Source: Candidatus Hydrogenedentota bacterium (GTDB lineage Bacteria; Hydrogenedentota; Hydrogenedentia; Hydrogenedentales; JAGMZX01). Taken from it: 43,737 nucleotides of DNA. The stretch spans positions 1-43,737 of the forward strand of contig JAKQEQ010000100.1 in the NCBI GenBank assembly GCA_029556545.1, written 5' to 3'. Below the pieces are notes generated by a model. The model saw only the letters and a program-made list of their open reading frames with translations, searched no databases and had not been told where the DNA came from. Positions 24,100 through 39,089 of the stretch are shown one piece after another. Made by a program: the position numbers and the translations under genes. Within the stretch, counting starts at the first letter, position 1. Each line of letters starts with the position of its first letter.

Positions 24100-25869
24100 A
24101 TGAACGGGGTCGGCGGCGTGGAGGGTGCGGCGCGAGGCATGCATGCCCGCCGCGCGGCGATTGCGGCGGCGTTGGCGGTTGTGCCCGTCCTGCTGTTTCT
24201 GAACAAAGCCCTTCATATTGATGACCCGCTCTTCGTATGGACCGCCCAGCATCTTCTTGAGGACCCCGTAGCGTTCTACGGGTTCGACGTGAACTGGTAC
24301 GGCGTGCCGGAATCGATGCACGCGGTGAACCAGAACCCGCCGCTGTTCTCGTATTATCTTGTCTTGTTCGGCGTCCTATTCGGCTGGCGCGAGTGGGGCT
24401 TGCACCTGGCCATGATGCCGCTCGCGGCATTGACAGGCGCGGGCGCGTATCTCGTGGCACGGCGATTCTGCGCGCATCCCCTGACGGCGGCGGCCACGGC
24501 GGTGCTGACGCCGGTGTTCCTGGTCTCCGCGACGACCCTCATGTGCGATGTGCCCATGCTGGCGCTCTGGCTGTGGGCGATGCATTGCTGGATCGTCGGG
24601 CGCGAACGGCGGTCCGCGCCGTGGTTTCTGGTGTCGGGGCTGTTGGTTGCGGCCTGTGCGCTGACGAAGTACTTCGGGGTCAGCCTCATACCTTTGTTGC
24701 TGGTATACACTTTGTTGCGAGGCAGGGGGGCGCGCATCCACGCGGCGTGGTTGATTCTGCCCGTCGCGTTACTGGGGCTTTACGAGTGGGGGACCGCGCG
24801 GTTGTACGGACGCGGGCTGCTCTGGGACGCGGTGTCCTATGCAAGTGGATTCCATGAAAGCGACGGCAATTACGCCGCCAAGGCGTGCACGACACTGGCG
24901 TTTCTTGGCGGGTGTCTCGTCTTCCCGTTGTTGTTTTCGCCGTGGTTGTGGTCGCGTCGGACGATTCTCGGCGGGATCGTATTCTGGGCGATGTTATTTG
25001 CCGCGTTCCTGTGGACCCCTGCGGGACGACACCTCCAGGATATCGCGGGGTTTGCGCCGTCAGCCGGCTATTTCGCGCAAGTGAGCCTGTGGCTTGTCGG
25101 CGGCGCGGCGACGTTGCTGTTGCTTGTGCCGGAAGGGGGAATGTTGCGCCCCCGTGGCACGGGTGTCCCGCCCGTGGAGGACCATGAGCAGGATGCTCAT
25201 GCCACGTGTGGCACGGGCGTCCCGCCCGTGGAGGACGGTGAGCGGGATGCACGTATCACGCGCCGCGCGGATCGTGTTGTGCTCGTCTTGTGGCTTGTGG
25301 GCACGGTCTTCTTCGCGGCGTTTGTGAACCACTACGTGAATGGCCGCGTGATCCTGCCCGCGGCGGTCCCCGCAGCCATCCTCGCGGCACGGCGCTTCGA
25401 ACATGCGCGATCCATGCCGGCGTGTTTTCGCCTCGCGCCGTTCGTCGTATCGGCCGTGCTTGGGTTGATGGTCGCCGGGGCCGATTATCGCCTCGCGGAG
25501 AACGGGCGCGTCGCCGCGCACGACACCATGGACCGCGCGGGGGACGGGCACGTCTGGTTTGTCGGGCATTGGGGTTTTCAATACTACATGGAGCGACGCG
25601 GCGCGCGGGCGGTGGACTTGTCGCGGCCCAATTTCAAGCCGGGTGAAGTGGTTGTCATACCGGAGAACAATACGAATCTGATCCGTCTCGGGGCGGACAT
25701 CATCGCCTCGACCGCCACGCTGGAATACCCCGCGTTTCCGGGATGCGCGACCATGCACCAAGCGTCGGGTGCGGGTTTCTATTCGGATGTGTGGGGACGC
25801 CTGCCGTTCGTGTTTACGGCCGCGCCGCCGGAGCGCTACGTGGTGGTGACGGTGGCGCCGAAGCCCTGA
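24100..25869 (+). CDS. GT39-type membrane glycosyltransferase with in-frame repeat insertion
   Basis: An integral membrane protein of 589 residues, resembling ArnT/PMT-like glycosyltransferases that use polyprenyl-phosphate sugars. It has an early acidic motif HIDDPLFVW (39-47), the aromatic NPPLFSYYLVLFG loop, about ten to twelve hydrophobic helices and a soluble C-terminal domain from about 470. ATG at 24100 has no strong ribosome binding site; ATG at 24139 with GCGAGG before it is an alternative. Around residues 352-388 the sequence is not membrane-like: it reads GTGVPPVED twice, encoded by a duplicated 29-nt palindromic unit inserted in frame between two helices. The acceptor is unknown. 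It lies 64 bp after panD. Confidence 0.85.
   Translation: MNGVGGVEGAARGMHARRAAIAAALAVVPVLLFLNKALHIDDPLFVWTAQHLLEDPVAFYGFDVNWYGVPESMHAVNQNPPLFSYYLVLFGVLFGWREWGLHLAMMPLAALTGAGAYLVARRFCAHPLTAAATAVLTPVFLVSATTLMCDVPMLALWLWAMHCWIVGRERRSAPWFLVSGLLVAACALTKYFGVSLIPLLLVYTLLRGRGARIHAAWLILPVALLGLYEWGTARLYGRGLLWDAVSYASGFHESDGNYAAKACTTLAFLGGCLVFPLLFSPWLWSRRTILGGIVFWAMLFAAFLWTPAGRHLQDIAGFAPSAGYFAQVSLWLVGGAATLLLLVPEGGMLRPRGTGVPPVEDHEQDAHATCGTGVPPVEDGERDARITRRADRVVLVLWLVGTVFFAAFVNHYVNGRVILPAAVPAAILAARRFEHARSMPACFRLAPFVVSAVLGLMVAGADYRLAENGRVAAHDTMDRAGDGHVWFVGHWGFQYYMERRGARAVDLSRPNFKPGEVVVIPENNTNLIRLGADIIASTATLEYPAFPGCATMHQASGAGFYSDVWGRLPFVFTAAPPERYVVVTVAPKP
25154..25236. repeat. Duplicated 29-nt palindromic repeat inside the GT39 gene
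   Basis: Two 29-nt units at 25154-25182 and 25208-25236, 54 nt apart, differ at one base. Each contains the dyad CACGGGYG-TCC-CGCCCGTG. Between them lies another perfect hairpin, CATGAGCA/TGCTCATG (25183-25201). The 54-nt period is a multiple of three, so the reading frame survives. A diverged copy is at 39071-39089. Confidence 0.95.
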
Positions 25870-26017: not shown

Positions 26018-26106
26018 GCCGGGATGGCGAAATTGGCAGACGCACTGGACTCAAAATCCAGCGGAGTTTCCCCTCCGTGCGGGTTCGACTCCCGCTCCCG
26101 GCACCA
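26018..26106 (+). tRNA. tRNA-Leu (anticodon CAA)
   Basis: Acceptor GCCGGGA/TCCCGGC, a Leu-type D arm, anticodon stem CTGGA/TCCAG with loop CTCAAAA (anticodon CAA), a long class II variable arm with GGAG/CTCC, and T arm GCGGG/CCCGC. CCA is encoded at 26104-26106. It reads UUG. A short GGCA/TGCC stem followed by a T6 run about 40 bp downstream (26140s) may end the transcript. Confidence 0.95.
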
Positions 26107-39063: not shown

Positions 39064-39070
39064 GGCGCGG

Positions 39071-39089
39071 CATGGGCGTCCCGCCCATG
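39071..39089. repeat. Palindrome CATGGGCG-TCC-CGCCCATG
   Basis: A perfect 8-bp hairpin with TCC loop. It has the same core as the GT39-internal repeat CACGGGCG-TCC-CGCCCGTG, but with a C-to-T change in one arm matched by G-to-A in the other. Confidence 0.9.

Follow-up and report, generated by a model that had tools for sequence, protein, structure and literature searches.

How a palindromic DNA repeat comes to lie, duplicated and in frame, inside a protein-coding gene is the question raised by a glycosyltransferase gene in the window, the whole 43,737-nucleotide stretch of a Candidatus Hydrogenedentota contig that was analysed here. A preliminary description of this DNA had pointed out two in-frame copies of the peptide GTGVPPVED within the gene and had compared the underlying dyad with REP/BIME elements. 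The evidence assembled below makes it very probable that the inserted DNA represents a non-autonomous REP dimer (BIME/REPIN) from a GTGG-headed family spread by a RAYT, and that the cognate RAYT clade shares its coding strategy.

The two GTGVPPVED copies are indeed found, at 25154 and 25208, and they belong to a tandem duplication of 54-nt units which are identical at 45 of 54 nucleotides when aligned with each other. A unit begins with a forward-reading 23-nt REP (GTGGCACGGGYGTCCCGCCCGTG), which is separated by 6 nt of spacer from a second REP in inverted orientation, and it closes with two more bases. The two copies described before both exist, but each is accompanied within its unit by an inverted partner, so that the insert consists of four REPs, organized as inverted 23-nt pairs with their GTGG heads pointing outward and then tandemly duplicated (Table 1). 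The units are read in the phase GTGVPPV...DAHAT, giving the in-frame peptides GTGVPPVEDHEQDAHATC and GTGVPPVEDGERDARITR, and the segment is stop-free only in the plus frames 0 and 2 and the minus frame 1. Its hairpins fold far better than shuffled sequences (z -3.5), while the chance expectation of the REP pattern within the window is 0.00 and shuffles of the window never yielded such matches. The third copy, for which a compensated stem had been proposed, does carry the change from C-G to T-A, although it starts at 39067 rather than at 39071. Directly 3' of the glycosyltransferase gene, a tRNA-like sequence occupies 26020-26105, which by eye resembles a leucine tRNA.

Table 1. Coordinates of the glycosyltransferase gene, its REPs and the embedded RAYT of the congener (positions in the window unless a locus is named).
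Feature	Position	Strand	Remarks
PMT_2 (GT39-like) glycosyltransferase ORF, host gene	24100..25869	+	589 aa; Pfam PF13231, E 9.9e-16
Insert of 36 codons made of two 54-nt REP-dimer units in tandem	25154..25261	+	54-nt direct repeat
REP 1: GTGG head and hairpin	25154..25176	+	0 mismatches to degenerate consensus
REP 2: inverted, pairs with REP 1; head points outward	25183..25205	-	GTGGCATGAGCATCCTGCTCATG, 0 mismatches, degenerate pattern
REP 3: head of the second unit	25208..25230	+	GTGGCACGGGCGTCCCGCCCGTG, exact consensus
REP 4: inverted, pairs with REP 3; decayed	25237..25259	-	from alignment of the two 54-nt units
Single intergenic REP	39067..39089	+	stem T-A replaces C-G
Congener embedded RAYT	L085/L098 1-1173	-	one 391-codon open frame: REP, RAYT, REP

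An ordinary intragenic duplication of amino acids, or a loop of the glycosyltransferase family, would be in frame and tandemly repeated just as this segment is, and the DNA palindrome would then be incidental. The comparison with orthologues, which had been set beforehand as the main refutation test, speaks against such an origin. Homologues drawn from 100 genomes, mostly of the same order as the window, align on either side of the insert, and in an alignment of 15 of them every sequence lacks it, with a gap of about 38 residues. Moreover, the same DNA recurs 269 times in the 6.1-Mb genome of the window at no more than 3 mismatches, mostly outside genes and with covarying arms, whereas the reversed control pattern returned 0 copies. 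An incidental palindrome can accordingly be given almost no credence.

The REP behind these copies, GTGGCAYGGGCRTCYYGCCCRTG, conforms to the GTAG/GTRG superfamily, and it is high-copy, dispersed, and mainly intergenic. The dyad search in relatives that had been suggested found it, with a slightly different pattern, in 43 of the 100 genomes searched, including 113 copies in the congener (G001). In two of the genomes (G010 and G059) a sister REP family with the loop GGGCTTCCAGCCC was observed, which forms many dimers 51 nt apart and outnumbers the RTCCY type there. The copies of the window's own genome were surveyed in 1.49 Mb of stretches, which were partly chosen around known copies, with a simple gene caller based on codon usage. 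Among the 179 REP copies sampled in this way, 91 have C-G and 71 have T-A at stem pair 7:21, and 88 have G-C and 70 have A-T at stem pair 12:16; the arms thus covary throughout the sample, and the compensatory change noticed at the third copy holds for the family as a whole. In addition, 63 of 75 close REP pairs are inverted with their heads outward, the commonest spacers being 9, 6, and 8 nt, which is the geometry of BIMEs and REPINs. With this geometry, the copy number, and the covarying arms, the likeness to REP/BIME elements is borne out.

The same survey revealed how the family stands toward genes. Of the sampled copies, 115 are intergenic, 36 are genic and have a good coding signal to either side, and the remainder lie at edges or in weak signal; the REPs are consequently strongly depleted in genes, which hold 20% of the copies as against 87% of the DNA in the 1.49-Mb sample. 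When the genic copies were counted per insertion event from this survey, with its stretches partly chosen around known copies, 13 of 17 insertions used the GTGVPPV phase, in which the inverted partner reads HGQDAHAT (p = 3.4e-4 against 1/3). Avoidance of stop codons was considered as the full cause of this preference and was found insufficient, since in intergenic dimers two sense phases are open about equally often (34 and 33 of 37); the preference would rather reflect selection for tolerable peptides. The preliminary description had placed selection on the hairpin rather than on the peptide. The first half of that proposal agrees with the covarying arms, but selection on the hairpin does not rule out selection on the peptide, and both the phase bias and the genic depletion point to the latter as well.

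A search for an associated transposase was answered in the congener rather than in the window's own genome. No RAYT flanked by the window's REP was detected in the own assembly, whose several Y1/RAYT genes carry other palindromes. Four of these own-genome RAYTs (L066, L067, L068, and L069) are accompanied by separate palindrome families, for example CTCGTTCCCAAG..CTTGGGAACG, CCGGGGACTGGCACAAGCGAG, ACACGCTGAAGCGTGTACTACAAAC, and GTAGACGAGGCTTCCAGCCTCGT. Because their flanking palindromes differ, the own-genome RAYTs were rejected as the cognate enzyme, and the RAYT of the congener was taken instead. This gene (L085) is bordered on both sides by arrays in which the window's REP recurs exactly, and two further RAYTs (L096 and L092) are flanked by variants of it. 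The transposase is a RAYT, the best solved match being TnpA-REP 4er8 both in sequence (E 3.6e-9) and in fold (E 2e-7, model pLDDT 90), and HxH and Y are invariant across 50 sequences. Around the congener RAYT, the open frame continues from MNAFMNQPRSFFR before the element to GERGAALIIAIAIMTILLAIALTFFAVTRLELKT after the final REP, the latter resembling by eye the start of a pseudopilin, and judging from these sequences the whole element appears to sit in frame inside a gene. In another RAYT (L090), its own repeat (ANxEIGVPR) recurs in frame several times, on either side of the transposase as well as within it.

The congener is not alone in this arrangement, as in about 6 of 53 RAYT copies of the order-level search the frame runs on into host genes both upstream and downstream. 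Six in-frame, stop-free embedded RAYTs were recognized in the window's order (L085/L098, L096, L101, L105, L114, and L118). In one genome (G032) the RAYT is flanked by GGGGCATGGGCGTCTCGCCCATG within a frame of 968 codons, where GCV_T precedes and GCV_T_C follows the Y1_Tnp domain. Four further RAYTs lie in frames of 1073-1466 codons with Pfam matches to Eco57I, Type ISP, or MmeI-type methyltransferases. Within one methyltransferase family, a single site is occupied by a REP dimer in the window's own genome (L273 5157-5211) and by a whole RAYT in another genus (L101, G021); the own-genome dimer is in frame, after ...PMIFVAQ and before ...FTQVESLEPPYPDV. A candidate with 685 open codons (L100) was rejected as an embedded copy, for its frame ends shortly downstream of the RAYT and its upstream part looks like a spurious reading of GC-rich DNA.

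To a much wider range of organisms the arrangement was extended by scanning 84,980 species with a RAYT alignment, which yielded 80 loci with named organisms (L127-L206). A RAYT was defined as embedded when its frame stays open for 100 or more codons upstream and 60 or more downstream. On this definition 33 of the 80 loci are embedded, a proportion which is inflated and is not to be read as an unbiased rate, given that the query alignment consisted mostly of embedded copies; most of the other loci stop within about 30 codons. In the same genomes, a different type of RAYT had an open frame of more than 400 codons in 0 of 43 full-length matches counted by hand (p = 5e-8 against 33/80, and 0.03 against 6/53).

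The hosts of the embedded RAYTs were identified by scanning eight chimeras, in which the models for ValS, FabZ, MetH, IspG, CarB, LeuS, DinG/YoaA, and NspC match in at least two stretches and the REP_Tyr_transpos model (NF047646) matches between the host segments. HsdR, PglX-like, DUF1156, and adenosine deaminase genes serve as further hosts. Restriction-modification or defence-type genes (Eco57I, Type ISP, PglX-like, DUF1156, and HsdR) make up a large share of the hosts, at L101, L105, L114, L118, L131, L152, L153, L158, L161, L162, L166, L176, and L178. The embedded transposases retain the PNHxH (HUH) motif in 33 of 33 and the tyrosine in all 33, as Y...N in 32 and as YTLEK in one. Perfect GT[AG]G hairpins around them number 47, compared with 1.3 in shuffles, and strict GT[AG]G hairpins border 13 of the 33 on both sides; for the RAYTs in ValS of a Phycisphaerales (L128) and a Planctomycetales (L129) member, the hairpins include the GTGGCACGGGCATCCTGCCCGTG type of the window.

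In the RAYT tree, insertions at the same site form clades for FabZ, ValS CP1, MetH, and IspG (SH-aLRT 88-99), while embedding as such was gained or lost repeatedly, the starred branches requiring a minimum of 7 changes. Within groups that share a host, the host proteins are 49-90% identical and the RAYTs 48-77%. These diverged same-site clades imply that the RAYT has been kept open, with its active site, over long divergence. For IspG, the chimera is the only copy over the family cut-off in 4 of 4 genomes. For ValS, it is the only frame over the cut-off in 4 of 5 genomes, and in the fifth, where the chimera is cut by the contig end, no frame reaches the cut-off.

Whether such loci could be artefacts of binning or assembly, or fresh insertions in dying genes, has to be weighed, as most of them come from metagenome assemblies (MAGs) and REP arrays are hard to assemble. 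Against this stands the fact that both junctions keep the frame in 39 loci (33 from the species-wide scan and 6 from the order-level search), that the same site is inherited in clades whose host proteins have diverged while the catalytic residues are kept, and that embedded RAYTs also occur in records not titled as MAGs (L156, Pontiellaceae B12227, and L166, Ca. Viridilinea mediisalina). An origin of this kind is consequently regarded as very unlikely. The embedded RAYTs resemble inteins or other self-splicing inserts in that they sit in frame at conserved positions within essential genes, the interrupted gene often being the sole copy detected. The peptides that flank the RAYTs, however, are encoded by the repeats and vary by locus (GTGVPPV, GMGVSPM, SIPGQD, SAAVPAAS, and others), the junctions display no visible shared splice residues, and scans of the chimeras with NCBIfam and Pfam returned no intein model; self-splicing is thus judged highly improbable.

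A different kind of objection holds that the hairpins act as RNA, either through ribosome bypass, as in T4 gene 60 and the mitochondrial byp elements, or by ending or stabilizing transcripts, with the peptide never being made. The strength of the hairpins is in keeping with such a role, as is the frequent transcription of REPs in other species (PMC3733652). Bypassed segments, nevertheless, have to keep neither an open frame nor a phase, yet the 33 embedded RAYTs are stop-free, and the genic REP dimers favour one open phase, so that an RNA role in place of translation is very improbable.

The preferred reading, a RAYT-spread REP dimer, can be formulated as a sequence of steps. By analogy with the TnpA-REP family, a RAYT would bind the GTGG-footed hairpin on single-stranded DNA and copy the inverted pair to new sites, and this mobilisation would also have taken place in the window's genome. 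Most insertions into genes would then be lost, and those with a net length that is a multiple of three and with the stop-free GTGVPPV/DAHAT phase would survive as hydrophilic loops; selection would be the agent of this step, which is based on the observed depletion, the phase preference, and the empty homologues. In the glycosyltransferase, one unit would finally have been tandemly duplicated, the duplication itself being directly visible in the 54-nt repeat. The RAYT clade follows the same coding strategy, as its sequences show: the genes stay in frame and stop-free, with REPs on both sides and catalytic residues kept, within host genes that are often essential. Embedded RAYTs are accordingly predicted to be made as a stretch of the host protein and thereby to be protected from deletion, and the host protein would tolerate the embedded insert. 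It is considered probable, with somewhat less confidence than the assignment of the window's insert, that a widespread RAYT clade is itself a coding insert, an extra domain of host proteins, many of them essential, that has been inherited for long with an intact active site, and that the REP dimers are its miniature offspring in the tolerated phase.

The persistence of RAYTs for millions of years, in single copy and though no advantage to their hosts has been proven, calls for an explanation. If the proposed reading is true, a RAYT built into an indispensable protein without breaking it would offer a simple answer, for the host gene could not be deleted and any frameshift or nonsense mutation in the transposase would also kill the host protein. 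Its existence would thereby resemble that of an intein, but with no splicing. The same reading would also explain the origin of the in-frame REP peptides (GTGVPPVED...DAHAT) in predicted proteins, and gene names may conceal a transposase, for example inside a tRNA ligase.

Among the known systems, Rickettsia palindromic elements (RPE) resemble the window's REPs as palindromes in frame within many proteins, but RPE-4 and RPE-6 are CGTC repeats with no associated transposase, according to PMC3733652. The TnpA-Y1 subclass 2.4 (PMC6006769) is similar in having in-frame REPs in coding sequence, there in tnpA itself, and L090 is alike. Proteins of unexpected length were excluded from that survey, being too long, as "gene fusions or annotation errors" (PMC6006769), and these may include embedded RAYTs. 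GT(A/G)G REPs have been described in the PVC superphylum, with GTGG heads in Opitutus terrae (GTAG-20; Di Nocera 2013, PMC3733652), and the same paper already reports intragenic REP dimers encoding 20-30 residues. The window's family agrees with the GTAG superfamily and GTAG-20 in its GT(A/G)G head and short hairpin, in its high copy number, and in forming head-head dimers, some of them genic. The window insert is a new member of the published kind of intragenic REP dimer (PMC3733652). As for the embedded RAYTs, PMC3733652, as far as consulted, lists REPs in genes and no RAYT inside genes, and the open-access literature searched yielded no account of RAYTs in frame inside host genes. With BIMEs and REPINs that have a RAYT (Nunvar 2010, PMC2817692; Bertels and Rainey 2011, PMC3116915), the present family shares inverted REP pairs, compensatory stem changes, and a RAYT flanked by its own REPs. 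A free-standing RAYT gene with its own start and stop is usual and is no requirement for catalysis, and the embedded copies depart from it; whereas the RAYTs of the BIME/REPIN systems (PMC2817692, PMC3116915) stand free between their REPs, many of those found here are stop-free and run on into the REPs and the host gene.
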